NCBI RefSeq assembly: GCF_037975245.1 | Contig: NC_092574.1 | Location: 18,941,713-19,005,712, forward strand | Reading direction: 5' to 3' | Origin: Apostichopus japonicus | Lineage: Eukaryota; Echinodermata; Holothuroidea; Aspidochirotida; Stichopodidae | Length of the DNA stretch: 64,000 bases | Shown here: piece by piece, positions 498-51,471 of the stretch | How positions within the stretch are numbered: position 1 is the stretch's first letter | Layout: each line of letters opens with the position of its first letter | Notes under the pieces: generated by a model | Seen by the model: only the letters and a program-made list of their open reading frames with translations | Database searches by the model: none | What the model was told of the DNA's origin: nothing | Made by a program: the position numbers and the translations under genes

Positions 498-2108
498 TTA
501 AAGTTCATTTACTTTCTTGTGATGCTTACTTTTCTTCTTATTTGCTCGATTTCTCATGATCGGACAAGAAACAATCAAGGGAGAAGATTCAGGCTGGCTT
601 TCGATATCCATACCACAGAGTTTACTTATAATGTACTTATATGCTTTAGTAATACAACATTCTTCATCGTCATACGTAAAAACCTCCTCAGCACTGTCAG
701 TCTCATCGTCACTGGCACATTCACCAATGGTCTCACTTGCCTGATGGAGACACCAATCGAAACTAACAACAATTACATCTTCCGTGCAACCCCGTGAAAT
801 TGGTATGTAGATTGAAACATCACGTTCGTCGTGCTCGTCCGCCGAATCAAACCAATCACCACCAATGAAGTCTTCCATGTTCGATAGCATAAACCGCGTA
901 TCCGATTGATCGTTACAATGGCTGATTTTTTTACCTCTCTCTTTGACCTGATCAGAAATTGCACACATGAAGGACGTGAGCATGCGGAAGAATGGTTTGA
1001 CTTTTGTTTTTACTTTCGTCGGTTCTGCAGTCTGAGAATGGATCTTTATCGATGGCATGTGCAAGTCCATTTTCTTGAAGCCGAGAATAAAGAAATCAGG
1101 ATATATCCCTCCTTCGTCAAAAAGATATTGAAATCTTGATAAAGGAAAGAATATCTCTTTAACGGTAAACGACTGGTCTACTTGGTCCCCGTTGTATTCT
1201 GCTTTCTTCAAATGACGAAGTGTATTATTAGCAAACCGTTTAATTTGTTCGAGGTATTGAACGACCTTCGGGCTGAGTAGGTTGTTAAATGGATTGGTGG
1301 GATCAATTAAATATGGAAGTTTGTTCAGAATATCAAGAGGGATCCTTTTCTTTCTGTAGTATCGTTCCCAAAAAATTTCTTGTTCATTGATTTTTCTAAC
1401 TATGAAAAGAAATGTGCGAAATCCCTGTATGATATTTTGTCTTGGTTCTAGTTTAGTCTCTTCGGCGGCTTTAACTGCAAGTAACTCCATAATTGTAGAA
1501 CGACCCGGACAGAATCCCTTTAGCGGAACAGTCATTACCCAATATTTGGCTAGCCGACAAAGTGAATGTGTGAAGGAATCCTGCTCTTTGAGAAAACCTA
1601 CAGCCGCTTCTGATAAACTAGAACTGAATTCTTTATGTCGCAGCTTACTGTTAGAGTTTAAACACTCCAAGGCATTATTAACCTGAATCTGTGTTCCTTC
1701 TCTATCATTATAATCACAATAATAATTATAACAATTTGGAACAAAATTCGTCGCTGGAAGCAAGTCGATAGAGAACTCACCGTATTCAAACATTACAGCG
1801 TGCTCGGTCTCTTTGCAATTCGGATTGTAATTTGACTTTACAAAACACTTTAGTGTTTCGATGATGTTATCGAAAGGAGGGATGACGTCATCGAAATATA
1901 CAACAATATCAATGTCCATATCAATCCATACGGACGTTTTCTTGCCAATACTACCCAAGACTTTAATCCGATTAAATGTCGACCTGCCGTTAAAGTAATC
2001 TTCCAGTCCCTTTCGTATTTGACTTGTGCACATGTCTACTCTTTTTTTAGTAGATTCACTCGGTGCAAGCTCTTGGGCAAAATTCCTTAATCTCGTCTGT
2101 AGATCCAT
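498..2108 (-). CDS. OAS-like nucleotidyltransferase, type A (A1)
   Basis: This is a 536-aa relative of 2'-5'-oligoadenylate synthase, an innate immune enzyme that in the known family makes 2'-5'-linked oligoadenylate from ATP on binding dsRNA. The GS motif is at residues 52-53, the D-x-D metal pair at D65 and D67, and the third aspartate at D115 in a DLLPA context. The OAS C-terminal core follows: RLAKYW (185-190), IIQGFRTF (226-233) and a DPTNPFNN motif (269-276). Residues about 372-453 form a second module shared with type B. After that comes an acidic stretch (about 463-483) and a lysine-rich end (523-532) that could be a nuclear localisation signal. The reading frame is open further upstream, but the splice acceptor 10 bases before this ATG and the matching start of A2 favour this start. 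The ligand and product are inferred from the family; it could instead be a cGAS-like receptor with another product. Confidence 0.9.
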   Translation of the reverse strand: MDLQTRLRNFAQELAPSESTKKRVDMCTSQIRKGLEDYFNGRSTFNRIKVLGSIGKKTSVWIDMDIDIVVYFDDVIPPFDNIIETLKCFVKSNYNPNCKETEHAVMFEYGEFSIDLLPATNFVPNCYNYYCDYNDREGTQIQVNNALECLNSNSKLRHKEFSSSLSEAAVGFLKEQDSFTHSLCRLAKYWVMTVPLKGFCPGRSTIMELLAVKAAEETKLEPRQNIIQGFRTFLFIVRKINEQEIFWERYYRKKRIPLDILNKLPYLIDPTNPFNNLLSPKVVQYLEQIKRFANNTLRHLKKAEYNGDQVDQSFTVKEIFFPLSRFQYLFDEGGIYPDFFILGFKKMDLHMPSIKIHSQTAEPTKVKTKVKPFFRMLTSFMCAISDQVKERGKKISHCNDQSDTRFMLSNMEDFIGGDWFDSADEHDERDVSIYIPISRGCTEDVIVVSFDWCLHQASETIGECASDDETDSAEEVFTYDDEECCITKAYKYIISKLCGMDIESQPESSPLIVSCPIMRNRANKKKSKHHKKVNEL

Positions 2109-2118
2109 TGACAAATAT

Positions 2119-2865
2119 CTACATAAACAAATGCAAAAGTAAATTTTAAAATAGACGTTTTGTATTCGTACTTGGTGTTTCACGCATCGACATTAAGTTT
2201 GCTCTTTGACGATATGATTATGCATTATATAGATTCAGGCCCGTAGCAATGTTGGACACGGGGATGTAACCCGGATCCCATGCAGACTTATGTTCGCCCC
2301 TACCCATATAACTTGTTATTGCCCGTTGATATCATAATTCCTGGTTACTGACCTATGCTTACTCGATTTCCAGAAACTGTCAAATGTATGATGCAAACTA
2401 TAATAGTTACTAACGTTCCATAACGTTTTTTTTTAGGTTCATGCCCCTACCTCACCCCAAGCCGGGATATTAAGAACCTGCGCCACACCTCCCCCCCCCC
2501 CGGTCACATTTCAAATCATGTGCACGCCACTGTAGAATATAGCTTACTTAACTACATGTACGGCATATGCTCCTTATAGCCGGGATATTAAGAACCTGCG
2601 CCACCCTCAATATTACGTCAAGATGACAATTATGAAAGAGTATAGCCAAACTTATTCACGCATGTATGCAGTGTAACAAATTTCACGAGTATTTTCATTT
2701 TACGTTATCTTTTCAGAAAGGTATATATGAAAGTTTCGTTCAGTAATATTTATTTGTTTGTTTTTAAGCAGATGAACTCACCAGTGATGGTCCAGATCAT
2801 GAAATCTTGAAGATGATAACGTTGGTTGTAGTCTTGGGCCAATATACACAACGCTGGCTTTTATT
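2119..2865 (-). promoter_or_regulatory. A1 5' intron, noncoding exon 1 and TATA-like box
   Basis: On the minus strand a TATA-like AATAAAAG (2858-2865) is followed by a short predicted exon ending at 2782 with a strong donor (ACTG|GTGAGT). The intron, 2119-2781, ends in a pyrimidine-rich acceptor (TTTATGTAG|ATAT) 10 bases before the A1 ATG. The donor and acceptor are conserved in A2 and A3. Exon 1 holds an ATG (2798-2800) that would open a 16-codon upstream frame overlapping the main start after splicing. This is inferred from sequence; no transcript is available. Confidence 0.6.
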
Positions 2866-2873
2866 CCTGTCAC

Positions 2874-2920
2874 AGTTGTCTAACAATATAATGGTACTAC
2901 CATTATATTGTTAGACAACT
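2874..2920. repeat. 47-bp near-perfect palindrome upstream of A1 TATA
   Basis: Two 23-base arms (left arm begins AGTTGTCTAACAATATAA) are perfect reverse complements around one central C. The palindrome sits 8 bases upstream of the A1 TATA-like box. Unit 3 carries it with one arm mismatch (39407-39453). Unit 2 has only the left arm at about 21006-21028. Confidence 0.95.
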
Positions 2921-3157
2921 TTGTTCAACTTTGTTTGACTGATTCGACTAATGCGGTTAAGTCTACATCAACTCACATCTGCATGGGAGACGTAAACAAA
3001 GAAAAATCAATGTATATTAGTGACTAAATATGATATATGGTGGCGATAAACTTGTGTTTCATATTTTATTATTCGAGCAAGGTACAATGGCTGGGAATTC
3101 CATGTGTTAAATTAAGAAATGACCTTTGACTGATCTCGTCAGTGTTAGCAAACAGGC

Positions 3158-4352
3158 TTGGATTTATGATTCCCTTATTGTTTGTATAAAACCTACAAAA
3201 TATTGACAGTGCTCTCCAAGCTGGTCGTATATTAGAGAGTGAATAGTAGTCACAGGAGACTAAAACGAAATGATAACGCATATAGTTCATATTCACATCA
3301 TAGCCGAATGTGGGTCTGTATAGGGTTGTTGATATTAGGTAAACTATGATCACACGAGTTCACACGAGATGGGGAGCTTTCATCAAAAATACAAAAAGCA
3401 ATATAATTCCTTTTTAGTTTTATTTCCATTCAATAACTCTATAGTTACAGTTGAGCAACACGCAGGAATCTAAACTGCTATAGCCATTGCTGGAAGTTAT
3501 GAACACTTACAATATATTTCTGCTTCCTATTCATATCACATTTTCTGTGAGAATCGATCGGCTTCGAGATGAATACCTTTGTTGATTTCTGCTTCCTAGC
3601 TCCCCCTCATACACCCCGTCAGGGATATATAACATTTTCTGTGAGAGTCGATCGGCTTCGAGATGAGTACATTTGTTGAGACCCAGTGACATGCGCTCAG
3701 GGGGTGGCGGGTGGGGTTATCCCGACACCCGGTCGTCAGTCGGGGGTGATGCTTCAGTTGGAGAAGGTTTGAGCCAATACTACGGTTGTACCCATCCCCA
3801 CCCCTCCTTACCCCAACGCACCATTATTTCAACCACACAAAGTATTTGCTGGCAAAACCTTGCGTTAGGAGCTACTTGTACATACCAAAAGTTTGTTTTA
3901 AATATGATGTATCACGATGCACCAATTGACTTCTACCCCGTACAACCCTGTACATAGGTGTCGGCTCCAGTGAACACGGCAGCACCCAATCTTTATATAA
4001 TTAAAAAAATTCATTCGCATCTGGTCCTCCCATAAGGAAAGAGTTAGCACAGAGTTAGAGTTATATATATCTGAGAATAACTCAGACCACACCATTCAAT
4101 TGGGGTTCTTTTTTCTCTTGAGGAGGACCCCCAGCCCTTCCTACAAAGGATATTTGCGAATTTCAATTTAAAGTCGGCTTGGTATTGATTGCTTCAAGAA
4201 CTTCTGGTTTCCCCTTTCCTGCCCACCACCCGTCCCTCCCCATTCCCTCCCTTCCAATTTCTATCAGAAGAAACGATAAATGAATAACAATAAGTATTTA
4301 TAAATAAATAAAAATTGCAGCACGTATACTGCGTGTTGCCGTACGGCGCAAT
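3158..4352. other. 1.2-kb block absent from unit 2
   Basis: This block is present in units 1 and 3 (3158-4352, about 39691-40884) and missing at the matching point of unit 2 (about 21270), where the flanks join directly. It holds an imperfect 48-bp direct repeat with a 94-bp period (3538-3585 and 3632-3679) and G/C-rich runs. I see no terminal repeats or convincing gene, so insertion and deletion cannot be told apart. Confidence 0.7.
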
Positions 4353-6088
4353 AGAAATCGAGGATTCCCCATTACGTGAGTAAACGTCATTGCATTACAG
4401 AGGGAAAGTCCAACATTGAGATCATTGCAAAATTCCTCTGTTTGAACAGATGCTTGCAAAATCGATTATGGATAACAACATCACACACTTCTGTACTAAC
4501 TACGTGTGTCCTCATGTTTAACACTGGCTTTATACTGCAAATACTGGCATCGAAGCCTCGCAGTATGAAATGTATTTGCTAGATATTCGTATCATACTGT
4601 TAACTGTAAATCACACTCACGGTCAGCCTGTACAGTCAACCTGTATAACAAAAACAGAGATTAGCACACGAGTCGATCAGCTTGGGTCGCATTTGTGTAC
4701 CGCCCAATCAATAACCAACCAAATATTCAATAATCAGGCAGAACATTTTAAAGACGCTTGAGCGACCACGGATGTGGGAGAAGCCCGCAAGAGTTATGGC
4801 TTACAAATTTCAACTTACAACTTTCCCCACGCTTTATGAAGGGTAAAGGACACAATATCAAATGTCCCCAGGTTTGTGACCGACTCGTGTAGGCGCTTGG
4901 CCTATCAGGCTCATAATGACTCGTGTATTTCATAAAGGGAGCTCAAATGTTGTGCTACATAAGACTTGTAGTTTTTAATGTTTCATTCTCATCTGATCAA
5001 CCCCTCGACGAGAAACAGAACTTTTCACCTGGGTTGTAATAAGCCATGATTATAGATTACGCTTATAGCGTAAATTAAATAAGGACCGCTCCCATACACC
5101 GCTGAGGCTATCTGCTAAGCCACCAGATAAAGCACGCAGCATTCGCTAACCTCCTTTCCAGTATATTGCATTTGATACTTTTATAGTATATTGCATTTCA
5201 CGTATATAAGTAATATAACACTATGAGTAACTTATACTGTGTATTCAATATATAATATGGTTAGCAATGGCATACGTGATAGTTTTCAAGTGTTTTTGTG
5301 ATAATTATATATTTCATAGGAGTTTTGAAACATACATATATGGTGCTAAGCCTGTGTGCTAAGCTGCTATTCATGTTGTTGTTATAACCATGTTACCCAT
5401 TATACCTCAAGTTCTAGTTGGATTGGGTTGGGTTTCTATATGAGTATACGTATGTACTAAATGTATAATTATAGTTCCAGGTCAGATTAAGTGATATAAA
5501 CACTAGCTTCAGGACCACTCTACCAAGCTAACCCCTCCCCTAGCACCCAGCCCCCCCCCAATTGCTGACATATATGGGACATTATCGCCCGTTATTAATG
5601 CATTGTACTTATAGAAATTATAACATAATTTCGTGCCATTTGGCATCGATATTTATTGAGGCAGAGGAGTTACGTTACTGAGTGAAATTGTCGAATTTCA
5701 GTACAAGCGATTATAACTGATGTCTTCTGCACTGTCGTCTATTTAAATGAACTATTGGTATCTTCCTAAATTCTAAACTATTCTTATCGAACAACATTCT
5801 CCATAAGGTGATTATAATAATTATAATTCAGCGTGCACTGCATGCCTTATAAATTGGCATAAAGGTAATAAAAGGCTTTGTTTTGAAAGTTAGATGTGAT
5901 TCCCCTGTTAGGAATATGTTGTTGCGTCCATTGTTACTTGAACAACTCATATAAAACGCCCTATTTATAAGAAACCTTATTTTTAGCATAATTGTGATAT
6001 CATGAATGTGTCTTTACTATTGCGCTATTTGAGAACATTGAAATGAACATTTCACTTGACGTGTTGATCACCTTTCTTTTATGTAATA
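4353..6088. other. Intergenic spacer, no gene seen
   Basis: AT-rich spacer between A1 and the plus-strand TATA modules. It is conserved in units 2 (about 21271-23310) and 3 (about 40885-42623). Short open frames here are shared by the copies only because the DNA itself is nearly identical. Confidence 0.6.
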
Positions 6089-6453
6089 GCTGTTTCCAGT
6101 GAATCTTTATTACACAAGGTCAATGCCAACACGACAAAGTTTTGCAGTGGCGACGTATTCTTGTGGCTGGCAAGACTCCGACCCTATATAAAGCCCAGTC
6201 CCGAAGCTGCTGTTGTATTGTAGTACTGACATTACTCCCCACTGGTGGATCCCGCTCCTCTATTGCTATGGCTGTTTAGTTTCCAAAGAATCTTTATAAC
6301 ACAAGGTTAATGCCAACACGACAAAGTTTTGCAGTGGCGACGTATTCTTGTGGCTGGCAAGACTCCGACCCTATATAAAGCCCAGTCCCGAAGCTGCTGT
6401 TGTATTGTAGTACTGACATTACTCCCCACTGGTGGATCCCGCTCCTCTATTGC
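6089..6453 (+). repeat. Two tandem copies of a 182-bp TATA module
   Basis: A segment beginning GCTGTTT is repeated with a period of 182 bases (starts 6089 and 6271). Each copy holds TATATAAAG on the plus strand (6185-6193 and 6372-6380) in a G/C-rich context followed by a conserved leader. Unit 3 has the same pair (42624-42988). Unit 2 has a single copy with TATAAAG at 23410-23416. This looks like a duplicated core promoter, or part of an LTR-like element. Confidence 0.75.
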
Positions 6454-6471
6454 CGCCCGCTACATTGTTGC

Positions 6472-6702
6472 ATGAAAACACAGAGGGAAGAAGCGAAACT
6501 CAAAGAACGTCGGCAAGACCACTCTCTAAAATTGACTAACCGACTTGAATTGACTTTATTCGTGATTGGATTTATTCTTACGTCATTAAACGGTAATGTT
6601 CTTCACTTGTTTTTGTCTTTTAGACAGCACTGTGTTCGTGTGCCTAAAACGACGAAGATTTCTGAACCAAAGGTTAAGATTAGACACAACCTGATTCTTT
6701 AA
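6472..6702 (+). CDS. Small ORF downstream of the TATA modules, unknown
   Basis: An ATG 92 bases after the second TATA box opens a 76-codon frame: a charged N-terminus, then a hydrophobic stretch, then a basic end. I do not recognise it. Within it lies a 31-base segment with GT...AG ends and a pyrimidine tract (6593-6623), which is shorter than normal animal introns. The unit 3 copy (43007-43237) is intact and the unit 2 copy is broken by a stop at codon 26. It may be a remnant of a mobile element rather than a gene. Confidence 0.25.
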   Translation: MKTQREEAKLKERRQDHSLKLTNRLELTLFVIGFILTSLNGNVLHLFLSFRQHCVRVPKTTKISEPKVKIRHNLIL

Positions 6703-8495
6703 GCTAAATCATTATATTCGGTCAATTATTTCCATCGTTATTAATCAGACGAAATAAGAAACATGAGGAGATTCAATCAGATATCATGGATGAATATTAA
6801 TCCTTTTTTAATCAGATGATATAAGAAACACGATTGGATCGAATAAGATATCATATGTGGATATTGATCACATGAACTTTATAACTGGATTCAATAAACA
6901 TAATATCCAGTATAGGATTATGAATATTTGTGGTCGGTTTCTTATCTGCTGGTCTTGGAAACAAATTGTTGAAACAATAGGTGTCATATGCGAACAAAGA
7001 TTACAAATTATGACATGCCATGTATACTTAAAGTTCGCTGCTTAGGTGTCGTTCTTTGTTTGGTTACTGTAATTCAATGTAAATTGACTCAATGACATTC
7101 TTGTCTCACGCATAAAGTTTCCTACCAAAGACAAGATATTTTTATAAGTCATTTGGAAATAGTTGCTAAAACAATTGTTAGTGCAAAAGTGCAAAGTTAA
7201 ATGATAGCAATGAGTTAAATGATAGCAAGCAAACCCATCGCTGTCTATCTACCAATTATATCTCTATTCATCAAACAAAATGTTTTACTTAGCGTGTTTT
7301 GTTTAACATCTGGCTACAGGGTTGTAAAAAGGAAATCATGATATAAAATGATGCTTTTGACATTTTGACTCAACTTATGCACAACTTTTGAAGAGGGAAG
7401 CAATATCTTATGATTTTGCAGAGCGCTTCTTCAAATGTTCAAGATTACTCATAAGGATTTCCCATTCATGATGTGAACATCCTAGTATTGCTACCTCATT
7501 AACATAGATTTATACCCCTGTTGGTTGGTGACCCTAACTTTCACCTTCATCATCCTGGGGACCTTCCAACCCCCCCCCAGGGGTGGATGTTTTAGTCTGG
7601 AGAAGGGGTAACCCCCTCCTATTTAAAAATTAATATATATTTAAGAGTGCTTTATTTACAAAAAAACGGTGTTATATTTTGCAACTTTTGAGCTAATTAT
7701 GTTGAATTTTTTTGTCCATATCACCTCATCAAATTGGACCAAATATATCTCTAACAGCCTACGAGGGAAAGGGTCGGAGAAATCAATGGCTGTACCGCAC
7801 CACTTAGACAATGAAGTACGACGTCTTCCTTCGCTTACGCCGTCCCACCCCGCCCCCTCTCCTCTCTCTTTCTACAAACGGAAAACAGAAGATCACATCA
7901 TGACAACGCACTGTCTAGTTGCATCATTAATTTTAAAACTTTAGGCATGAATATTATAATGCAGTGATTAATTTATCACACAATTGACACATGCCCCGAA
8001 GCTAAAGATAAACAAACTTGAACCTATATATTCGCTGCAAATGCCATCAAAATGAAGCAGGAATGGTCGATGTTGCACCTCCTATATATCCATCCCGAGT
8101 TACCACTACCAGCGGTTTGTTCGAGTTAGTAGCTCATCACTTCATATTTAGTTGTACATTGCACGATGAGTTTACACTTAACGCGTTTTGTAAACAATAT
8201 AAACATTAAGATTACGAAAACTAGACTGTTCTCATATACGTTGTGGAGGTACCATTTCACCTGCCGAAAATCAGTAGTAAACTAAGCATCAATTTTCTTG
8301 CAGTTTGCCCAAGCAATTTGCAACGTCATAGGAGTAAACTTACACAATACGTCGACTCTTTAGTAGGTTAGATGTTAAATATTTGAAGTTAGACATATTA
8401 GGAAGCAGAAGCATGATTCTGTATCTATCTCTATCAGACGAAATGCTTGCTGTTTATATTACTTTGTATTTACTTGAAAGATGAAAAAGCGCAGG
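6703..8495. other. Spacer between small ORF and B1, no gene seen
   Basis: AT-rich spacer conserved in all units (24560-26370 in unit 2, 43238-45030 in unit 3). The stretch 8020-8120 is nearly invariant between units, but the only open frame across it lacks an ATG start. A run of C at 7570 varies in length between copies. Confidence 0.5.
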
Positions 8496-8538
8496 TTATA
8501 TGGCATATGAAAACATATCTACAAGTTCCAATTCGCCT

Positions 8539-9870
8539 TTAAACCCAGTTGCAACTAATTGTAATGACATCAGTCGCATCTTTGCCAATGGGAATCGTGA
8601 AAGTCGTGTGTTTGTCCTCATGTCGTTCACTCGATGATGACCATGTACCAGAGGATATGAACTGCGCGAGCTCCCACTTGACCTTTTCTGCAATATCTTC
8701 TCCTTGCCCGTGGCCCATGTCTCCATCGATTTTAGCAGCTGCTGCCACGATGTCAGTAAATGAAAAGAGATAACTCGAAGCAATATTCGAATCTACTCCT
8801 CTTTCTCCAGATCGCTTCTCGATCTTCGGTAGTAAGAGCCGCTCTCCAATTTCCAATTTCTTGGTGCTTACCAAGATATTTTGAGGTGTCTTGACTTTTG
8901 GAGATTTAAACATAACCCCCCACGTTGGTTGAGGTTCGAATAGCATCTTAAGACTAAACCCTTCGTTCCTCTCTGACTTGCCTAATCGGGATAAAGTCTC
9001 CGTTGCGTATGCACTCATTTGCCTCAGGTTATCACCAAGAGCTCCTTGTAACATGTTGTTATACGGGTTGGTAGGGTCAAGCAGCAGTGGACGCTGGTGT
9101 AAAATGTCCGCTGGGATGTCGGTCCTTCGATAGTATCTCGTCCAAACTATGTTTAAGTTGTGCGACTGTTTTATCATCGTCAGGAATCGACGAAACCCTT
9201 GCAGAATATCCCTACTTCCACGACGTTCCTCTTCCTCAGCAGCCCATGCACCAAGGTACTCCATGATAGAGGAGCGACCAAAGGAAAATCCAGGAATCCC
9301 AATTGTAGTACTCCAAAGCTTGGCGAGCCTCGACAAGGAGTGGGAAAATGCTGAATGATTTCGCTCGAAAGCTACAGCTCCTTCGGACAGTGACGTGCTG
9401 AAATCCATATAGTTTCCTCGTCTGTTGTTCCTCAGATGTTCTAGCGTGTTGGCAACCTGCACGCCTATCTCATCAGTTTCCCCAGAGTAGCCGTTTGAAT
9501 ACAAGAAATTTCTAGCAGGTAACAAATCCACGTCGAATCCTTTCACGGTCAGAGACAACCCCAGAGGACTCTGTTTGCAATCTTCATCAATATTCATGGT
9601 TATGACGTCATCAAGCTTTTGCTTGAATTCACTGAACGGTGGCATCTCGTTATTGAGATAAATGATGACATCGATATCCATTTTGAACCAGAGTGATGTC
9701 TTTTTGGTCAAGCTACCGAGTGGTCGAATACGATCGATGGAGAACTTAGATCCCAAGTGTCGATGTAAAACATCTTGGATGAGCTTCGTGGCTTCTCCTG
9801 CTTTCTCCAAGATACCAGAGGACGGAGCCAGCGAATCAGCGTACTGCTTGAGTTGAATGCTCAAAGACAT
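8539..9870 (-). CDS. OAS-like nucleotidyltransferase, type B (B1)
   Basis: This 443-aa protein has the same catalytic core as type A: GS at 52-53, D65-x-D67, D115 before LLPA, RLAKLW (181-186), ILQGFRRF (222-229) and a DPTNPYNN motif (265-272). A variable linker (about 325-355) leads into a C-terminal module (about 360-443) shared with type A, ending in a hydrophobic strand pattern and a terminal CNWV. It lacks the type A acidic and basic tail. The start is chosen because a pyrimidine-rich acceptor ends 2 bases before this ATG, which is at the same place in B2 and B3. The OAS assignment is firm at family level; product and ligand are inferred. Confidence 0.9.
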   Translation of the reverse strand: MSLSIQLKQYADSLAPSSGILEKAGEATKLIQDVLHRHLGSKFSIDRIRPLGSLTKKTSLWFKMDIDVIIYLNNEMPPFSEFKQKLDDVITMNIDEDCKQSPLGLSLTVKGFDVDLLPARNFLYSNGYSGETDEIGVQVANTLEHLRNNRRGNYMDFSTSLSEGAVAFERNHSAFSHSLSRLAKLWSTTIGIPGFSFGRSSIMEYLGAWAAEEEERRGSRDILQGFRRFLTMIKQSHNLNIVWTRYYRRTDIPADILHQRPLLLDPTNPYNNMLQGALGDNLRQMSAYATETLSRLGKSERNEGFSLKMLFEPQPTWGVMFKSPKVKTPQNILVSTKKLEIGERLLLPKIEKRSGERGVDSNIASSYLFSFTDIVAAAAKIDGDMGHGQGEDIAEKVKWELAQFISSGTWSSSSERHEDKHTTFTIPIGKDATDVITISCNWV

Positions 9871-9872
9871 AT

Positions 9873-10920
9873 CTGTTTGATACGAAAACAAAAACAAAGC
9901 AAACAATAAATTAATAGTAAATTGAAAACATTGCCAAGACTCCCATCGATCTTACAGGATCTATAGATATTTTTTTTATTATTCATACTATGGAAGGAAA
10001 CATCCATGACAGAGAAAAGAAGCACAATATTAATAACTTCAAAACATGTCAATCATATGTTTGAAACTGAAAAGGTTTATAGGCCTACATGCAGTCTTTT
10101 AAATTGTGATCGGATAAGGTAGAGTTTCACATAAATATCCCAGATTGAAATTATTTTTCGGCCTCTAGCGTTAATCTTGTTCATTTGTTTACAATTTTAG
10201 ATCCTACAGTTAACAAATTCAACTCCGATTAATAACGAAAAAATTATCAGTATTTAAAAATTGATGAAAAAATGGAAGGCATAATGCAATCACCGATTTA
10301 TTGTTTTATTGTGAATCAATTGGCTTTATTGAGAATACTAAAACGACATAAGAACACTCGTTCAATGACAACGCCTTGAGGGAATGCTTTAGTTTGATCG
10401 ATTGTCATGTTATTTGATGAATATTGAAAAAGTGCCTAAAATACACTACACTTTTTAAGCTGTTTTACTTCAAATATATGTTTACAAATGTTTCCTTTGC
10501 GAACATAACTATCGGGTACCAAACGTGAAATATGTCCGTACTCTATTCCGTATGCATGCTTGCAATTTGTACTCATACTACCGACACGAAAGAAATTTTT
10601 TATAAATGCTTGTGCACATTAAGTCCTCCGATTTGTACTCTGACTGCTGCAATTGCTCTCGTACACAGAGTGCTCATCCAGTTTGTATTGCCTGTTGTAG
10701 ATTCATATGACAGACATGAAATGAATAAATTAAGAATAAAGAGAGTCAACTTACCGAGTTCAATCGTTAAATATCACGCCCGAATAATTTCAGATGAAGG
10801 AAATTCCTCTCCTAGTTCTCGTGCCCCTTTAAGTTTTTAACAGGTTGTTTTAATGGGGTAAGAATTTATCGTTTTGTTATTCGATACAACCCAATTGATT
10901 GTCAAAGAACCAGTGATGAT
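9873..10920 (-). promoter_or_regulatory. B1 5' intron, exon 1 and promoter with kappaB-like site
   Basis: The predicted intron is 9873-10754, with acceptor AACAG|ATATG and donor GAACTCG|GTAAGTTGAC. Upstream of the donor the predicted exon and promoter hold a palindromic GGAAATTCC (10799-10807), one base shorter than the Rel/NF-kappaB consensus. Equivalent sequence lies upstream of B2, C1, B3 and C2. The part beyond about 10.9 kb matches the type C promoter of unit 2 better than the B2 promoter. Confidence 0.5.
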
Positions 10921-12184
10921 ATTCCCACCGAACTCTCTTAATTAATTGTCATAAATTTGATTACAACCAGCGAAGATTATCATTGTCTCATCCATAGCAA
11001 ATCATAACAAACAGGGACTATACGCATTGCGACATTTGGGAATACCCAATTTTGAAATCGCACTATGCAAAGTTCAATCATTTAATTTTGTGAATAACTG
11101 CAGACATAATGTTTTTCTATAAACAGTGCGATCGAAGGATTGTCACACTTCACGGGGGCGTTGCCCATGCTTCGGGACGGTGATGTAAAAAAAGGTTTGC
11201 AAATACACATTTGAACCCGTAAAATTCGTCATTTTCATAATATCTTTTGCATAGTGATCTAACTGATCAAATATGCGATGACAATTACACAATGGTATAA
11301 CGAAATGGTCTGAATCGAAACCTATCCGCTAATAGTGAATGCAAAGTCTTTTCCTTTCAAGAAATCCATGTTTGTGTATGAAGGGGACGTGAATCAAGAC
11401 CTCTTCCTCTCGCTATTTCTATATAATTATTGAGTTTTCCCCCAAATATTTCGCAGTTTTACGAAATGGGCAGGACGACTCTTATGTTCAACACAATATT
11501 GAGCATGCACATAGACCATTTTGAAGGTTATGACAAAGTTTAGCAGAAATAGACTTGAAAAGAATTTACATTTAAAAGATCTGCATTACAGTGTGAAAAT
11601 TATATGATACGTACACAGTAGATGTTTGTTCATGTTTCTTGTACACGTCTTTGTACATGTCCATGCTCCTCAGAAGTTGAGAAGTTTGTTGAAATACTAA
11701 GAAAGATTGCAATTAAAATGTGTATTTCATCTTGAAGGGAAAAAGACATTCAAATAATGAATTTTGTGGAACAGAATGTTCAGATGATCCATTTTGTCGG
11801 AAAGTTTTGAGGTAACTTAAAAAATGTCCCACTGCCTAATGGAAGTTTGTGCATCCCGTCCCCTTCTCGCTCGAATGAGGCCTCTTCAATCGCATCTGGT
11901 TTAGTCAAACCGCATACATCATTTTTGTTGAAATAATTATATATGGTAAAATCAATTAATAAAACACAATGTACTGTTATATATTAGTCCAAGGCAGGTT
12001 TATTTTGACGGACAAGAAAGCAATTCGTGATATCGACATAGCATAATAGGTTGGGAGGTAAGGCCATACGTCAAGTTTTAATAGGTCAGAGATACAAATG
12101 GTCGGAGAATTAGTATACAACCCGTCAATTTAATGATTGGTACTACCAAAATATGGACAGTGTATGCATTTTACTATTCAAGCA

Positions 12185-12237
<53 letters not shown>

Positions 12238-31140: not shown

Positions 31141-31166
31141 AATCATAATTCGACATCTACGGCTGT

Positions 31167-31260
31167 ATTATCACAAACCTTTTGCCACATTCCGTTTTAA
31201 TATATTCAAAAGCAAACTTAGCAAATTCTTTATATCGATTTAGGCCAAAATATGGTGATA
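31167..31260 (-). pseudogene. Out-of-frame C-terminal remnant of C1
   Basis: In another minus-strand frame the DNA overlapping and following the C1 stop reads PYFGLNRYKEFAKF and continues to a TAG near 31168. The first ten residues resemble type A FFPLSRFQYLF, which sits at the corresponding place in A (about 320-330). C2 has the same arrangement with the frame open longer. Confidence 0.5.
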
Positions 31261-38656: not shown

Positions 38657-38666
38657 TGACAAATAT

Positions 38667-39398: not shown

Positions 39399-39406
39399 CC
39401 TGCCAC

Positions 39407-39453
39407 AGTTGTCTAACAATATAATAGTACTACCATTATATTGTTAGACAACT
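39407..39453. repeat. 47-bp palindrome upstream of A3 TATA
   Basis: The counterpart of 2874-2920 with a single mismatch between the arms (ATAATAGTA against TACCATTAT). Confidence 0.95.
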
Positions 39454-42400
39454 TTGTTCAACTTTGTTTGACTGATTCGACTAATGCGGTTAAGTCTACA
39501 TCAACTCACATCTGCATGGGAGACGTAAACAAAGAAAAATCAATGTATATTAGTGACTAAATATGATATATGGTGGCGATAAACTTGTGTTTCATATTTT
39601 ATTATTCGAGCAAGGTACAATGGCTGGGAATTCCATGTGTTAAATTAAGAAATGACCTTTGACTGATTTCGTCAGTGTTAGCAAACAGGCTTGGATTTAT
39701 GATTCCCTTATTGTTTGTATAAAACCTACAAAATATTGACAGTGCTCTCCAAGCTGGTCGTATATTAGAGAGTGAATAGTAGTCACAGGAGACTAAAACG
39801 AAATGATAACGCATATAGTTCATATTCACATCATAGCCGAATGTGGGTCTGTATAGGGTTGTTGATATTAGGTAAACTATGATCACACGAGTTCACACGA
39901 GATGGGGAGCTTTCATCAAAAATACAAAAAGCAATATAATTCCTTTTTAGTTTTATTTCCATTCAATAACTCTATAGTTACAGTTGAGCAACACGCAGGA
40001 GTCTAAACTGCTATAGCCATCGCTGGAAGTTATGAACACTTACAATATATTTCTGCTTCCTATTCATATCACATTTTCTGTGAGAATCGATCGGCTTCGA
40101 GATGAATACCTTTGTTGATTTCTGCTTCCTAGCTCCCCTCATACACCCCGTCAGGGATATATAACATTTTCTGTGAGAGTCGATCGGCTTCGAGATGAGT
40201 ACATTTGTTGAGACCCAGTGACATGCGCTCAGGGGGTGGCGGGTGGGGTTATCCCGACACCCGGTCGTCAGTCGGGGGTGATGCTTCAGTTGGAGAAGGT
40301 TTGAGCCAATACTACGGTTGTACCCATCCCCACCCCTCCTTACCCCAACGCACCATTATTTCAACCACACAAAGTATTTGCTGGCAAAACCTTGCGTTAG
40401 GAGCTACTTGTACATACCAAAAGTTTGTTTTAAATATGATGTATCACGATGCACCAATTGACTTCTACCCCGTACAACCCTGTACATAGGTGTCGGCTCC
40501 AGTGAACACGGCAGCACCCAATCTTTATATAATTAAAAAAATTCATTCGCATCTGGTCCTCCCATAAGGAAAGAGTTAGCACAGAGTTAGAGTTATATAT
40601 ATCTGAGAATAACTCAGACCACACCATTCAATTGGGGTTCTTTTTTCTCTTGAGGAGGACCCCCAGCCCTTCCTACAAAGGATATTTGCGAATTTCAATT
40701 TAAAGTCGGCTTGGTATTGATTGCTTCAAGAACTTCTGGTTTCCCCTTTCCTGCCCACCACCCGTCCCTCCCCATTCCCTCCCTTCCAATTTCTATCAGA
40801 AGAAACGATAAATGAATAACAATAAGTATTTATAAATAAATAAAAATTGCAGCACGTATACTGTGTGTTGCCGTACGGCGCAATAGAAATCGAGGATTCC
40901 CCATTACGTGAGTAAACGTCATTGCATTACAGAGGGAATGTCCAACATTGAGATCATTGCAAAATTCCTCTGTTTGAACAGATGCTTGCAAAATCGATTA
41001 TGGATAACAACATTACACACTTCTGTACTAACTACGTGTGTCCTCATGTTTAACACTGGCTTTATACTGCAAATACTGGCATCGAAGCCTCGCAGTATGA
41101 AATGTATTTGCTAGATATTCGTATCATACTGTTAACTGTAAATCACACTCACGGTCAGCCTGTACAGTCAACCTGTATAACAAAGACAGAGATTAGCACA
41201 CGAGTCGATCAGCTTGGGTCGCATTTGTGTACCGCCCAATCAATAACCAACCAAATATTCAATAATCAGGCAGAACATTTTAAAGACGCTTGAGCGACCA
41301 CGGATGTGGGAGAAGCCCGCAAGAGTTATGGCTTACAAATTTCAACTTACAACTTTCCCCACGCTTTATGAAGGGTAAAGGACACAATATCAAATGTCCC
41401 CAGGTTTGTGACCGACTCGTGTAGGCGCTTGGCCTATCAGGCTCATAATGACTCGTGTATTTCATAAAGGGAGCTCAAATGTTGTGCTACATGAGACTTG
41501 TAGTTTTTAATGTTTCATTCTCATCTGATCAACCCCTCGACGAGAAACAGAACTTTTCACCTGGGTTGTAATAAGCCATGATTATAGATTACGCTTATAG
41601 CGTAAATTAAATAAGGACCGCTCCCATACACCGCTGAGGCTATCTGCTAAGCCACCAGATAAAGCACGCAGCATTCGCTAACCTCCTTTCCAGTATATTG
41701 CATTTGATACTTTTATAGTATATTGCATTTCACGTATATAAGTAATATAACACTATGAGTAACTTATACTGTGTATTCAATATATAATATGGTTAGCAAT
41801 GGCATACATGATAGTTTTCAAGTGTTTTTGTGATAATTATATATTTCATAGGAGTTTTGAAACATACATATATGGTGCTAAGCCTGTGTGCTAAGCTGCT
41901 ATTCATGTTGTTGTTATAACCATGTTACCCATTATACCTCAAGTTCTAGTTGGATTGGGTTGGGTTTCTATATGAGTATACGTATGTACTAAATGTATAA
42001 TTATAGTTCCAGGTCAGATTAAGTGATATAAACACTAGCTTCAGGACCACTCTACCAAGCTAACCCCTCCCCTAGCACCCAGCCCCCCCCCCCCAATTGC
42101 TGACATATATGAGACATTATCGCCCGTTATTAATGCATTGTACTTATAGAAATTATGACATAATTTCGTGCCATTTGGCATCGATATTTATTGAGGCAGA
42201 GGAGTTACGTTACTGAGTGAAATTGTCGATTCTCAGTACAAGCGATTATAACTGATGTCTTCTGCACTGTCGTCTATTTAAATGAACTATTGGTATCTTC
42301 CTAAATTCTAAACTATTCTTATCGAACAACATTCTCCATAAGGTGATTATAATAATTATAATTCAGCGTGCACTGCATGCCTTATAAATTGGCATAAAGG

Positions 42401-42623
42401 TAATAAAAGGCTTTGTTTTGAAAGTTAGATGTGATTCCCCTGTTAGGAATATGTTGTTGCGTCCATTGTTACTTGAACAACTCATATAAAACGCCCTATT
42501 TATAAGAAACCTTATTTTTAGCATAATTGTGATATCATGAATGTGTCTTTACTATTGCGCTATTTGAGAACATTGAAATGAACATTTCACTTGACGTGTT
42601 GATCACCTTTCTTTTATGTAATA

Positions 42624-42988
42624 GCTGTTTCCAGTGAATCTTTATTACACAAGGTCAATGCCAACACGACAAAGTTTTGCAGTGGCGACGTATTCTTGTG
42701 GCTGGCAAGACTCCGACCCTATATAAAGCCCAGTCCCGAAGCTGCTGTTGTATTGTAGTACTGACATTACTCCCCACTGGTGGATCCCGCTCCTCTATTG
42801 CTATGGCTGTTTAGTTTCCAAAGAATCTTTATAACACAAGGTTAATGCCAACACGACAAAGTTTTGCAGTGGCGACGTATTCTTGTGGCTGGCAAGACTC
42901 CGACCCTATATAAAGCCCAGTCCCGAAGCTGCTGTTGTATTGTAGTACTGACATTACTCCCCACTGGTGGATCCCGCTCCTCTATTGC
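42624..42988 (+). repeat. Two tandem TATA modules, unit 3 copy
   Basis: Same 182-bp duplication as at 6089-6453, with TATATAAAG at 42720-42728 and 42907-42915. Confidence 0.75.
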
Positions 42989-43006
42989 CGCCCGCTACAT
43001 TGTTGC

Positions 43007-43237
43007 ATGAAAACACAGAGGGAAGAAGCGAAACTCAAAGAACGTCGGCAAGACCACTCTCTAAAATTGACTAACCGACTTGAATTGACTTTATTCGTGA
43101 TTGGATTTATTCTTACGTCATTAAACGGTAATGTTCTTCACTTGTTTTTGTCTTTTAGACAGCACTGTGTTCGTGTGCCTAAAACGACGAAGATTTCTGA
43201 ACCAAAGGTTAAGATTAGACACAACCTGATTCTTTAA
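43007..43237 (+). CDS. Small ORF downstream of the TATA modules, unit 3 copy
   Basis: A 76-codon frame, nearly identical to 6472-6702. The function is unknown and its coding status is doubtful. Confidence 0.25.
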   Translation: MKTQREEAKLKERRQDHSLKLTNRLELTLFVIGFILTSLNGNVLHLFLSFRQHCVRVPKTTKISEPKVKIRHNLIL

Positions 43238-45075
43238 GCTAAATCATTATATTCGGTCAATTATTTCCATCGTTATTAATCAGACGAAATAAGAAACATG
43301 AGGAGATTCAATCAGATATCATGGATGAATATTAATCCTTTTTTAATCAGATGATATAAGAAACACGATTGGATTGAATAAGATATCATATGTGGATATT
43401 GATCACATGAACTTTATAACTGGATTCAATAAACATAATATCCAGTATAGGATTATGAATATTTGTGGTCGGTTTCTTATCTGCTGGTCTTGGAAACAAA
43501 TTGTTGAAACAATAGGTGTCATATGCGAACAAAGATTACAAATTATGACATGCCATGTATACTTAATGTTCGCTGCTTAGGTGTCGTTCTTTGTTTGGTT
43601 ACTGTAATTCAATGTAAATTGACTCAATGACATTCTTGTCTCACGCATAAAGTTTCCTACCAAAGACAAGATATTTTTATAAGTCATTTGGAAATAGTTG
43701 CTAAAACAATTGTTAGTGCAAAAGTGCAAAGTTAAATGATAGCAATGAGTTAAATGATAGCAAGCAAACCCATCGCTGTCTATCTACCAATTATATCTCT
43801 ATTCATCAAACAAAATGTTTTACTTAGCGTGTTTTGTTTAACATCTGGCTACAGGGTTGTAAAAAGGAAATCATGATATAAAATGATGCTTTAGACATTT
43901 TGACTCAACTTATGCACAACTTATGAATAGGGAAGCAATATCTTATGATTTTGCAGAGCGCTTCTTCAAATGTTCAAGATTACTCATAAGGATTTCCCAT
44001 TCATGATGTGAACATCCTAGTATTGCTACCTCATTAACATAGATTTATACCCCTGTTGGTTGGTGACCCTAACTTTCACCTTCATCATCCTGGGGACCTT
44101 CCAACCCCCCCCCCATGGGTGGATGTTTTAGTCTGGAGAAGGGGTAACCCCCTCCTATTTAAAAATTAATATATATTAAAGAGTGCTTATTTACAAAAAA
44201 ACGGTGTTATATTTTGCAACTTTTGAGTTAATTATGTTGAATTTTTTTGTCCATATCACCTCATTAAATTGGACCAAATATATCTCTAACAGCCCACGAG
44301 GGAGAGGGTGGGAGAAAACAATAGCCGTACCGCACCACTTAGACAATGAAGTACGACGCCCTCCTCCGCTTACGCCGTCCCACCCCGCCCCTCTCCTTTC
44401 TCTCTTTCTACAAACGGAAACCAGAAGATCACATTATGACAACGCACTGTCTAGTTGCATCATTAATTTTAAAACTTTAGGCATGAATATTACAATGCAG
44501 TGATTAATTGATCACACAATTAACACATGCCCCCGAAGCTAAAGATAAACAAACTTGAACCTATATATTCGCTGCAAATGCCATCAAAATGAAGCAGGAA
44601 TGGTCGATGTTGCACCTCCTATATATCCATCCCGAGTTACCACTACCAGCGGTTTGTTCGAGTTAGCAGCTCATCACTTCATATTAAGTTGTACATTGCA
44701 CGATGAGTTTACACTTAACGCGTTTTGTAAACAATATAAACATTAAGGTTACGAAAACTAGACTGTTCTCATATACGTTGTGGAGGTACCATTTCACCTG
44801 CCGAAAATCAGTAGTAAACTAAGCATCAATTTTCTTGCAGTTTGCCCAAGCAATTTGCAACGTCATAGGAGTAAACTTACACAATACGTCGACTCTTTAG
44901 TAGGTTAGATTTTAAATATTTGAAGTTAGACATATCAGGAAGCAGAAGCATACTTCTGTATCTATCTCTATCAGACGAAATGCTTGCTCTCCATATTACT
45001 TTGTATTTACTTGAAAGATAAAAAAGCGCAGGTTATATGGCATATGAAAACATATCTTCATGTTCCAAACGACCT

Positions 45076-46398
45076 TTAAACCCAGTTGCAACTGATTTTA
45101 ATGACGTCATTCGCATCTTTGCCAATGGGAATCGTGAAAGTCGTGTGTTTGTCCTCATGTCGTTCACTCGATGATGACCATGTACCAGAGGATATGAACT
45201 GCGCGAGCTCCGACTTGACCTTTTCTGCAATATCTTCTCCTTGCCCGTGGCCCCTGTCTCCATCGATTTTAGCAGCTGCTGCAACGATGTCAGTAAATGA
45301 AAAGAGATAACTCGAAGCAATATTCGAATCTACTCCTCTTGCTCCAGATCGGTTGTCGATCTTCGGCCATGAGAGCCGCTCTCGCTCAGTGCCTACCAAG
45401 AAATTTTGAGGTGTCTTGACTTTCGGCCGAGATTTAAACATAACCTCCCACGTTGGTTGAGGTTCGAATAGCATCTTAAGACTAAACCCTTCGTTCCTCT
45501 CTGACTTGCCTAATCGGGATAAAGTCTCCGTTGCGTATGCACTCATTTGCCTCAGGTTATCACCAAGAGCTCCTTGTAACATGTTGTTATACGGGTTGGT
45601 AGGGTCAAGCAGCAGTGGACGCTGGTGTAAAATGTCCGCTGGGATGTCGGTCCTTCGATAGTATCTCGTCCAAACTATGTTTAAGTTGTGCGACTGTTTT
45701 ATCATCGTCAGGAATCGACGAAACCCTTGCAGAATATCCCTACTTCCACGACGTTCCTCTTCCTCAGCAGCCCACGCACCAAGGTACTCCATGATAGAGG
45801 AGCGACCAAAGGAAAATCCAGGAATCCCAATTGTAGTACTCCAAAGCTTGGCGAGCCTCGACAAGGAATGGGAAAATGCTGAATGATCTCGCTCGAAAGC
45901 TACAGCTCCTTCGGACAGTGACGTGCTGAAATCCATACAGTTTAGTGATCTGTTGTTCCTCAGATGTTCTAGCGTGTTGGCAACCTGCACGCCTATCTCA
46001 TCAGTTTCCCCAGAGTAGCCGTTTGAATACAAGAAATTTCTAGCAGGTAACAAATCCACGTCGAATCTTTTCACGGTCAGAGACAACCCCAGAGGACTCT
46101 GTTTGCAATCTTCATCAATAATCATGGTTATGACGTCATCAAGCTTTTGCTTGAATTCACTAAACGGTGGCATCTCGTTATTGAGATAAATGATGACATC
46201 GATATCCATTTTGAACCAGAGTGATGTCTTTTTTGTCAAGCTACCGAGTGGTCGGATACGATCGATGGAGAACTGAGATCCCAAGTGTCGATGTAAAACA
46301 TCTTGGATGAGCTTCGTGGCTTCTCCTGCCTTCTCCAAGATATCAGAGGACGGAGCCAGCGAATCAGCGTACTGCTTAAGTTGAATGCTCAAAGACAT
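45076..46398 (-). CDS. OAS-like nucleotidyltransferase, type B (B3)
   Basis: This 440-aa protein has GS 52-53, D65, D67 and D115 intact. It is close to B1 overall, including the C-terminal module, but its linker (GTERERLSWPK) resembles B2. It also has a local change from RRGNYMDF to RSLNCMDF. The frame stays open for 38 codons upstream by chance; the acceptor 2 bases before this ATG fixes the start. Confidence 0.9.
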   Translation of the reverse strand: MSLSIQLKQYADSLAPSSDILEKAGEATKLIQDVLHRHLGSQFSIDRIRPLGSLTKKTSLWFKMDIDVIIYLNNEMPPFSEFKQKLDDVITMIIDEDCKQSPLGLSLTVKRFDVDLLPARNFLYSNGYSGETDEIGVQVANTLEHLRNNRSLNCMDFSTSLSEGAVAFERDHSAFSHSLSRLAKLWSTTIGIPGFSFGRSSIMEYLGAWAAEEEERRGSRDILQGFRRFLTMIKQSHNLNIVWTRYYRRTDIPADILHQRPLLLDPTNPYNNMLQGALGDNLRQMSAYATETLSRLGKSERNEGFSLKMLFEPQPTWEVMFKSRPKVKTPQNFLVGTERERLSWPKIDNRSGARGVDSNIASSYLFSFTDIVAAAAKIDGDRGHGQGEDIAEKVKSELAQFISSGTWSSSSERHEDKHTTFTIPIGKDANDVIKISCNWV

Positions 46399-46400
46399 AT

Positions 46401-47310
46401 CTGTTTGATACGAAAACAAAAACAAAGCAAACAATAAATCAATCGTATATTGAATACTTTGCCAAGACTCCATTGATCTTACAGGATCTATAGATACCTC
46501 TCTATAATTCATATTATGGAAGGAACATCCATGACAGAGAAAAGAAACACAATGTTAATAACTTCAAAACCTGTCAATCCTATGTTTAAAAATGAAAAGG
46601 GTTACAGGCCTACATGCAGTCTTTTAAATTGTGATCGAAACGGTAGAAATAAATATCCCAGATTGAAATAATTTTTCGGCCTCTAGCGTTGATCTTGTTC
46701 ATATTTTTACACTTTCAGATCCTACAGTAAACAAATTCAACTCCGTTTGTTAAAGAAAAAATATCAGTATTTAAAAATTGATGAAAACGACACAATGAAC
46801 ACTCGTTCCATGACAAAGCCTTGATGGAATGCTTCAGTTTGATCAATTGTCATGTTATTTGATGAATATTGAAAAAGTGCCTAAAATACACTACACGATT
46901 TAAGCTGTTTTCATTCAAATTTATGTTTACAGAGGTTTCCATCGCAAACATGACTATCGGGTACCAAACGTGAAATATGTTCGTACTCGTATGCATGCTT
47001 GCATGTACTCGCTCTCGTCCAAAATTTGTACTCATACTACCGACAATAAATAAATTTATTATAAATGCTTGTGCGAAATTAAGTTCCCCGATTTGTACTC
47101 TGACTGACGAATTGCTCTCGTAAACAGAGTATTCATCCAGTTTCGATTGCCTGTGGTAGATGCATATGACAGACATGAACTAAATAAATTAAGAATAAAG
47201 TAAGTCAACTTACCGAGTTCAATCTTTAATTATCAAGTCCGAATAATATTCAGGTAAAAGGAAAATTCCTCTCCAATTTCTCGTGTCCTTTTAAATGGTT
47301 GTTTTAATGG
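46401..47310 (-). promoter_or_regulatory. B3 5' intron, exon 1 and kappaB-like site
   Basis: The intron is 46401-47213, with donor GAACTCG|GTAAGTTGAC. GGAAAATTCC is at 47260-47269, with the TATA-like TTTAAAAGG just upstream. This promoter is closer to that of C1 (32837-32935) than to that of B2. Confidence 0.5.
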
Positions 47311-50179: not shown

Positions 50180-50357
50180 CCACTCTCCTCTACGGCAATC
50201 ACCATCACTGGCATTTTATTCGACTTTGCTAAAAAGTTAAACAAACTTTGATAATTGAACGTCTGACTTTCATGCTTGAGGTTTTTCGCTACTTTACAAA
50301 ACGATTCGAATAGCAAGTGCAAGATTGGAATGTTATTAAAAGGTTAATTTAGTAAAA

Positions 50358-50560
50358 TTATTTTCTTTCCCTAAAATTAACAAGGACACATGTTGACGAA
50401 GCATTATTTGACATCGACGGCTGTATTATCACACACCTTTTGCCACATTCCGTTTTAATATATTCAAAAGCAAACTTAGCAAATTCTTCATATCGATTTA
50501 GGCCAAAATATGGTGATCTTTTCGTACCCGGAAGCTCCACCGTCCATAAACATCGCAGGA
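50358..50560 (-). pseudogene. Out-of-frame C-terminal remnant of C2
   Basis: In a frame other than that of C2, the DNA spanning its stop reads PYFGLNRYEEFAKF and stays open to 50358. It shows the same local similarity to type A FFPLSRFQYLF as the C1 remnant. Confidence 0.5.
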
Positions 50561-51471
50561 ATACTTCCATTGCGTTCAGCTGCATCCAGCTCTGCCAGAG
50601 TTCGTTTAGCAAAGTGACTCAACAGGTGGTATTGCTCTTGTGAAACACCTTGGAAGAAGTTATCGTGCGGGTTAGAAGGGTCAAGCAGTAGTGGTCGCTG
50701 TTTCCTTATTTTCTGTGGAATATCGGCTAAAGAGTAGAAATCATCCCAATAGACGCAAATACTCTGTGGTTGTTCAACCATGTTAAGGAATCTTCTAAAC
50801 GCGTTGAGAAGATCCTGACTTCCATAACTTGACTCTTCATCTTCCGCAGCACGTGCCCCGAGGTATTCCATGATGGAGGATTTTCCTTTCAAATTTATAG
50901 AATGTTGAATTCCCCAGTACTTTGCTAAGCGAGACATAGCGTGTGAAAAGGCACTGTGTTTCTTCTCAAAGGCAACTGCACACTCCGAGACAGAAGTACT
51001 GAAGTCCTCTTTCTTATCTACGTTTGGACCAGCAATATGTTTCAGATAGTAAAGGACATTTGCCAGTTGGTTTTCCGCCACCGTGTTATAACCTTCTCTG
51101 AAGTATTTATTGACCATATTGACGGTTGCGATTAAATCAACGTCAACCCCGTTCACTTTCAGTTTAATGGCATGCGAACCCTCTTGAACGTTACTGTCCA
51201 ATCTAACCAACGCGTTCACTATTCTTCTTTTGGCGTTTGTAAATGGAGGCATTTCATCGTTTAAGAAAACATGTAAATCTAAATCCATCTTTAATCCAAG
51301 AGACGTTTTCTTGGCATAACTTCCCAGAGGTACTACGCGTTCAACAGAGAGACCATGCGTGGCTTGAAGGACACGTTGTATCATATCAGTTGCTTGACCA
51401 GCTTTGTCCAGCAAATTTTGGTTTGGCGCCAAGCCGTCCGCAAACTTACGTAAATACTTGCTCAATGACAT
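50488..51471 (-). CDS. Short OAS-like nucleotidyltransferase, type C (C2)
   Basis: This 327-aa protein is close to C1, with GS 50-51, D63-x-D65 and D112 intact. The conserved proline three residues after D112 is alanine (DLIAT), where all other copies have P. It has two small insertions relative to C1 (near 127 and 214). Like C1 it lacks the C-terminal module. The acceptor CTCCGTAG is 17 bases upstream of the ATG. Confidence 0.88.
   Translation of the reverse strand: MSLSKYLRKFADGLAPNQNLLDKAGQATDMIQRVLQATHGLSVERVVPLGSYAKKTSLGLKMDLDLHVFLNDEMPPFTNAKRRIVNALVRLDSNVQEGSHAIKLKVNGVDVDLIATVNMVNKYFREGYNTVAENQLANVLYYLKHIAGPNVDKKEDFSTSVSECAVAFEKKHSAFSHAMSRLAKYWGIQHSINLKGKSSIMEYLGARAAEDEESSYGSQDLLNAFRRFLNMVEQPQSICVYWDDFYSLADIPQKIRKQRPLLLDPSNPHDNFFQGVSQEQYHLLSHFAKRTLAELDAAERNGSIPAMFMDGGASGYEKITIFWPKSI

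Follow-up and report, generated by a model that had tools for sequence, protein, structure and literature searches.

A locus in the holothuroid Apostichopus japonicus bears on how OAS signalling operates in animals that have neither interferon nor an RNase L that can be recognised. A stretch of 64,000 nucleotides (C14:18941713-19005712, contig NC_092574.1; hereafter the window) carries eight intact minus-strand reading frames of the oligoadenylate synthetase (OAS) type within positions 498-51471. What are these genes, how did they come to stand side by side, and what may their products do? The locus represents a real expansion of the OAS family in this echinoderm, and the C-terminal module that most of its members bear matches nothing searched. 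Our preferred reading, to which we assign a probability of roughly 0.7, is that an old cassette of three gene types (A, B and C) has been repeated four times, that the genes encode active OAS-type enzymes, that the module is regulatory and that the effector is not RNase L. The set would then form an interferon-free immune battery whose gating is unlike that of vertebrate OAS. Gene integrity, profile family, architecture, the similarities between blocks and the difference in rate between module and core are data; we infer enzymatic activity, product linkage, the role of the module, the immune role and the mechanism of gene deletion.

The gene array

The eight frames encode proteins of 325-536 amino acids (aa), counted from the likely start methionine (MDLQ in the A genes, MSLS in the B and C genes), and the coding region of each is one exon. 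The mechanically called open reading frames (ORFs) of A1, A3 and B1-B3 start upstream of this methionine, and in the ORF list of the window (24 frames of at least 100 aa) the longest other frame has 140 aa. Acceptor-like sites were found by eye 2 to ~50 bases 5' of the ATG in A1-A3 and in the B, C and D genes (the last being relatives on another contig, see below), including ...tatgtag directly upstream of the A1 start, and a non-coding first exon is therefore likely. Identity within a type is 84-97% for A, 90-95% for B and 88% for C, and between types it is 33-36% for A/B, 33-37% for A/C and 45-48% for B/C. The original prediction, made from the letters of the window, had described eight intact minus-strand frames in three architectures in the order A-B, A-B-C, A-B-C; the coordinates (Table 1) and the presence of Pfam OAS1_C in every frame confirm this description. 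It was sound but somewhat understated, as the array exceeds the window. A fourth unit consisting of A0, B0 and a broken C0 lies to the left, so that the order on the chromosome is A0-B0-C0(broken), A1-B1, A2-B2-C2, A3-B3-C3.

Genome-wide searches (671.6 Mb in 35 contigs) determined that there are at least 16 OAS1_C loci over the cut-off, 10 of which are in the array. The others are D1-D4 on C1, S14 on C14 at 21.63 Mb and S20 on C20. An open frame with all three motif elements (GS, D-x-D and the third aspartate), and with the lysine of RLAK as well, is present in 14 of the 16 loci, D1 and S14 being the exceptions. The D-cluster regions contain 2,493 N (L005) and 2,507 N (L006). A scan of the window with Rfam gave nothing at gathering scores, a tRNA scan of the window gave none, and the alignment of the eight frames found no relatives in prokaryote and viral contigs.

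Family membership

Membership in the OAS family was first proposed on motif order, and it is now supported by profile searches. OAS1_C (PF10421) was above the cut-off in all eight frames (E 1e-10 to 3e-14) and SMODS (PF18144) in four (A1, A2, A3 and C2). By bits OAS1_C outscores SMODS in seven of the eight, with A3 giving 47.5 for SMODS and 47.1 for OAS1_C. Mab21 (PF03281) matched none of the eight at E up to 1. A profile of 13 family members, compared with the solved chains of the PDB, gave 17 matches at E up to 10, led by OAS2 (4e-39), OAS1 (3e-26), OASL (9e-17), CdnC (4e-14) and OAS3 (6e-12), followed by further CD-NTases, none of them better than 0.026, and by two NDRG2 chains at chance level; none of the 17 is a cGAS or Mab21 chain. 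Judged by profile, these proteins belong to OAS.

In the available part of PMC10732462, OAS1_C marks the OAS superfamily and Mab21 marks the cGLRs, the OAS superfamily is nested inside bacterial clade C, and cyclic tri-adenylate is given as the product of clade C enzymes. These statements bear on the idea that the array encodes cGLR or eSMODS proteins, which would supply cyclic di- or trinucleotides to STING-like receptors. The SMODS matches in half of the frames, by a margin of 0.4 bits ahead of OAS1_C in A3, favor that idea, as does the position of CdnC, of the clade that makes the cyclic trimer, as the next best solved family. We consider it improbable nonetheless, given OAS1_C in every frame, the lack of a Mab21 match up to E=1, and OAS chains far ahead of CdnC with no cGAS chain; the match to CdnC is itself expected because OAS nests within clade C. 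A genome search with the STING ligand domain (PF15009) gave no match, but its control was also without a match and nothing is concluded from it.

The host had been taken for an invertebrate, which is correct, and the mitochondrial code identifies it as an echinoderm. Contig C35 (16,099 bases) is the mitochondrion: when translated with code 9, COX1 stays open until a TAA at its end, and AAA codons occur where we take Asn to be conserved. A sponge host, suggested by published work on invertebrate OAS, was set aside in view of COX1. ND1 and ND2, as we read their frames, share the strand of COX1, and a frame read as ND6 is on the opposite strand, an order that is presumably that of echinoids and holothuroids and unlike that of starfish. 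Pieces of COX1 with TGA-containing frames at C29:14745-16086 and 30842-31219 may be copies in the nuclear genome or belong to another haplotype of the mitochondrion.

Catalytic residues, RNA contacts and the effector

GS, D-x-D and the third aspartate, said in the original prediction to be kept, are invariant across the eight frames, and the RLAK lysine is present in all of them as well. Because the aspartate triad, GS and this lysine are retained, catalysis is likely. Each intact copy would most likely be an active, metal-dependent OAS-type nucleotidyltransferase (NTase) that polymerises ATP to a short linear, probably 2'-5'-linked oligoadenylate, a view of activity and product that follows from the conserved catalytic residues and the family placement. 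A drift toward non-catalytic roles as sensors or scaffolds, like that of vertebrate OASL, has a precedent in the same genome: the relative S14 (C14:21629257-21630246, 329 aa) is open yet has lost GS, the first aspartate of D-x-D, the third aspartate and the lysine and, judging by these residues, is an OASL-like pseudoenzyme. All eight window copies retain what S14 has lost, and such a drift is very unlikely for them.

The residue positions were read by eye from an alignment of the frames against pig OAS1 (chain 1px5). We take the contacts of human OAS1 with double-stranded RNA (dsRNA) to be K42, K60, R195, K199 and K204. The positions of K42, K60, R195 and K204 are occupied by E/H/Q, V/P, V and F, respectively, and are non-basic in all eight frames, and the K199 position, basic in all eight, is the only basic one of the five. 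The RNA trigger implied by the original prediction is weakened by these substitutions. For OASL, the residues R45, K66, R196 and K200 are given in the available part of PMC4446440. A genome search with the KEN domain (PF06479) gave one exon, all 16 PDB matches of which are IRE1; beside this exon no RNase L KEN domain was found by a search that is able to find the domain, though exons may be missed.

Do the eight genes then work as in vertebrates, with dsRNA binding, synthesis of 2'-5' oligoadenylate (2-5A) and activation of RNase L? They share the Pfam family and the catalytic residues with the vertebrate enzymes, and the basic K199 position is in keeping with such a mechanism. The four non-basic positions (as read by eye), the KEN search that yields the IRE1 exon only and the sponge OAS reported to be active without dsRNA (PMC6307210, in its available part) argue against it, and we regard it as unlikely. 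For these same three reasons we favor OAS enzymes that are not gated by the vertebrate groove, and whose message would probably reach an effector other than RNase L.

The C-terminal module

An alignment of 10 members determined that a C-terminal module of ~125-150 aa is common to A, B and D. A profile built from these 10 and run over the fetched regions places the module in 12 of the 16 OAS loci, B0 and D1 being independent finds. In the same regions it is absent from C2, C3, S14 and S20, no trace of it lies on the downstream side of either C2 or C3, and the next match after the 12 OAS loci has an E of 0.24. None of the 10 members matches Pfam at E up to 10, and there was no match in the PDB. 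The B1 module alone, searched against the genome, returned B and D genes only (8 places) and missed the A modules, so that distant copies elsewhere may be missed. This orphan module, which C lacks, would most likely serve in regulation or in the binding of a ligand or partner in place of the dsRNA groove.

Among the B genes the module diverges by 11.2% (B1/B2), 10.0% (B2/B3) and 5.0% (B1/B3), as compared with 2.6%, 3.3% and 1.9% in the core, which is 2.6-4.3 times as much. For the same pairs the divergence is 6.0%, 5.9% and 3.8% in the 3' flank and 4.5%, 9.1% and 9.2% in the 5' flank. In all three B pairs the module is thus ahead of the 3' flank; the difference is significant in two of them (p=0.0013 and 0.009) and not in the other (p=0.31). 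A more far-reaching proposal is that of parallel OAS receptors, in which the fast-diverging module would take over from the dsRNA groove in sensing the trigger, A, B and C would differ in cue or product and the effector would again not be RNase L. We hold this only tentatively, as a possibility somewhat short of one in four; if true, it would be a different wiring of the OAS pathway in a deuterostome.

Constraint and selection

The ratio of nonsynonymous to synonymous rates (dN/dS) in the core is 0.24 for A0/A1, 0.22-0.46 for the six B pairs, 0.35 for C2/C3 and 0.26-0.35 for three D pairs, and these low values indicate constraint across most of the family. In the module it is 0.48-0.63 for B, 0.44-0.83 for D and 0.27-1.22 for A. 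Positive selection on the module was considered and is not supported, as its dN/dS is mostly below 1 in B, D and A. Synonymous and nonsynonymous counts differ between core and module by Fisher's test in three of seven pairs (B0/B1, p=0.009; B1/B2, p=0.023; D2/D4, p=0.0016) and not in B1/B3, B0/B2, A1/A2 or D3/D4. The arms race suggested in the original prediction remains plausible, but dN/dS is above 1 only where changes are few (1.22 in the A1/A3 module and 1.96 in the C2/C3 end region of 29 codons). With a dN/dS of 0.48-0.63 and a raised synonymous rate, the B modules are explained as well by exchange, or by the persistence of old module types, as by diversifying selection.

Several observations weigh against our preferred reading of constrained, active enzymes with a fast-changing module. 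In the A core dN/dS is 0.82 (A1/A2), 0.83 (A2/A3) and 0.92 (A1/A3, few changes), and the recent A copies thus show no clear constraint. The B module does not clearly outpace non-coding sequence, since for B1/B3 and B2/B3 it does not stand apart from the 5' flank. For B1/B2 the synonymous rate is 0.19 in the module and 0.06 in the core; such a raised rate could stem from conversion, or from alleles of long standing, instead of selection. The glutamine of QGF, which we take to be at the donor site, is replaced by Asn in C, and C3 has IATVN where the others have LPATN, LPARN or IPTVN. The acceptor pocket differs from that of pig OAS1 by T190 to S and Q193 to A, alongside S at S186 and S or T at T187. 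A change of T187/T190 has been linked to mixed 2'/3' products in sponges (PMC6307210); as T187 is mostly kept and T190 conservatively changed, the pocket yields no prediction of linkage.

History of the array

The original prediction had called for a family tree of all copies in the genome. In the tree built here, which has 15 members and omits D1 and C0, the three types form separate, well-supported clades. A, B, C and D are each starred, A1 and A3 are sisters, B1 and B3 are sisters, and S14, S20 and A0 have long branches. From the separate clades it follows that A, B and C are old and that the recent events are block copies. The claim of a local diversification therefore needs to be divided: the block copying of a ready-made trio and the divergence of the B module are local, but the split between A, B and C is old (33-48% identity) and a further module-bearing clade, D, sits on another contig, C1. 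In the proposed history, the anciently diverged cassette would have reached four copies by unequal recombination of blocks.

The most recent copying is that of an A-B block. Positions -818 to 10270, counted from the start of the window, and 35707 to 46787 are 96.9% identical over 11.1 kb, and A3 is 97.4% identical to A1. An identity of 96.9% is within reach of the heterozygosity of marine invertebrates, and the copies could in principle be largely an artefact of assembly in which the haplotypes of a very heterozygous animal were set in tandem. The two blocks, however, are separated by ~25 kb that include a third unit of roughly 88-92% identity, their neighbours differ (no C beyond B1, C3 beyond B3), and over long stretches there is a difference of 7-10% between units 0 and 2. 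Given the diverged unit between the 97% blocks and the difference in their neighbours, duplication of a haplotype in a simple form is unlikely, and we give an artefact of this kind very little weight.

A B-type upstream repeat (rB) follows B0, B1, B2 and B3, and a further copy follows C2. The repeat beyond B1 (10454-12829) is 95.5% identical to that beyond C2 (32522-34909), and the repeats that flank C2 (28242-29877 and 32524-34129) are direct and 88.6% identical. On the upstream side of C3 there is only a repeat piece of 77-79% identity (51721-52179). With C2 flanked by repeats and the C-less unit left with one, C1 was probably deleted by recombination between the repeats. A decayed A0-type piece of 57 codons lies at a break in similarity (17843/17844): positions 17843-18628 match the start and flank of A0 at 88%, and 17843-23493 matches the A0 side in pieces at 88-94%, which suggests another exchange point. 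Taken together, the comparisons within the locus indicate that the trio was copied as blocks, that one C was lost, presumably by deletion, and that one C has decayed.

Other repeated elements were observed in the window. A 187-base unit is present ~1.9 times in tandem in both block copies (6092-6453 and 42627-42988) and apparently once in the third unit. Two stretches of 335 bases (13668-14000 and 35116-35450), 98% identical and inverted between two units, lie close to arrays in which the repeat is of the CATTTCGCCCAACCAG type and 22 bases long, and may reflect a recent inversion or a mobile fragment. Inverted copies with 87% identity at 23881-24255 and 52794-53165 carry a GRIQDFL-type frame, perhaps that of a dispersed mobile element; its region (52761-53180) has no Pfam match up to E=1. 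The same holds for 60115-60453, where a frame resembles, by reading, the end of a LINE reverse transcriptase. An imperfect 15/31-base tandem repeat (52185-52484) lies near the upstream side of C3.

Table 1. Genes, duplicated segments and repeats of the OAS array and its relatives; positions are those of the window unless a contig is given
Feature	Position	Strand	Architecture	Remarks
A1	498-2108	-	OAS core + module + acidic tail with basic end	536 aa, single coding exon
B1	8539-9870	-	OAS core + module	443 aa
A2	15893-17476	-	OAS core + module + tail	527 aa
B2	26415-27734	-	OAS core + module	439 aa
C2	31230-32207	-	OAS core only	325 aa
A3	37046-38656	-	OAS core + module + tail	536 aa
B3	45076-46398	-	OAS core + module	440 aa
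C3	50488-51471	-	OAS core only	327 aa
Recent A-B segmental duplication, copy 1	1-10270			begins 818 bases left of the window
Recent A-B segmental duplication, copy 2	35707-46787			
rB upstream repeat after B1	10340-12829			no C gene here
rB upstream repeat between B2 and C2	28128-29877			
B-type upstream repeat upstream of C2	32521-34909			
rB upstream repeat between B3 and C3	46784-48468			
Decayed A0-type N-terminal piece	17852-18022	-		~57 codons, in-frame stop
A0	C14:18926541-18927887		without charged tail	448 aa
B0	C14:18935920-18937239			439 aa
C0	C14 ~18939636-18940555			broken: several frame breaks, start methionine lost
D1-D4 cluster	C1:18452944-18483905		four core + module genes	D1 with one in-frame TAA

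Comparison with known systems

Within one locus the array offers natural comparisons between genes with module and tail, with the module and with neither, between copies that are 97% identical and, elsewhere in the genome, with a dead relative. The contrast between A, B and C is suited to asking whether the module gates or directs the enzyme. Among the matches listed in the literature search there was no echinoderm OAS array, which is not proof of absence. The available parts of two reports describe one brittle-star transcript annotated as OAS 1A (PMC7217437) and, in a sea anemone, an OAS1 homologue that is raised in antiviral cells (PMC13319465).

The best solved match is to vertebrate OAS1/OAS2, with which the array proteins share the NTase core with GS, D-x-D, the third aspartate and OAS1_C. 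Unlike these, the array genes have one coding exon and an orphan C-terminal module, and the proteins have four of the five dsRNA contact positions considered non-basic, together with T190S and Q193A. The sponges (Geodia and others) resemble the present case in having several OAS genes in an interferon-free animal (PMC6307210; PMC2852836; both in part), and their enzymes, compared here by description only, have fewer basic residues on the dsRNA face and are reported to be dsRNA-independent (PMC6307210, in part). Bacterial CdnC (a clade C CD-NTase, chain 6p80) is the best solved relative outside OAS (4e-14), a likeness that extends to the SMODS matches in four of the eight frames, but it is a bacterial enzyme, and OAS gives far higher scores for the proteins of the window. 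The cGLRs of bivalves and corals are likewise a lineage-specific expansion of nucleotide-messenger enzymes (PMC9980059, in part); they belong to a different superfamily, the array frames having no Mab21 match. OASL, like the A and B proteins, is an OAS core with an added C-terminal part. In OASL, however, this part consists of ubiquitin-like domains (PMC6307210, in part) whereas the array module has no Pfam match, and OASL is catalytically inactive (PMC4446440, in part) whereas the array proteins keep the catalytic residues.

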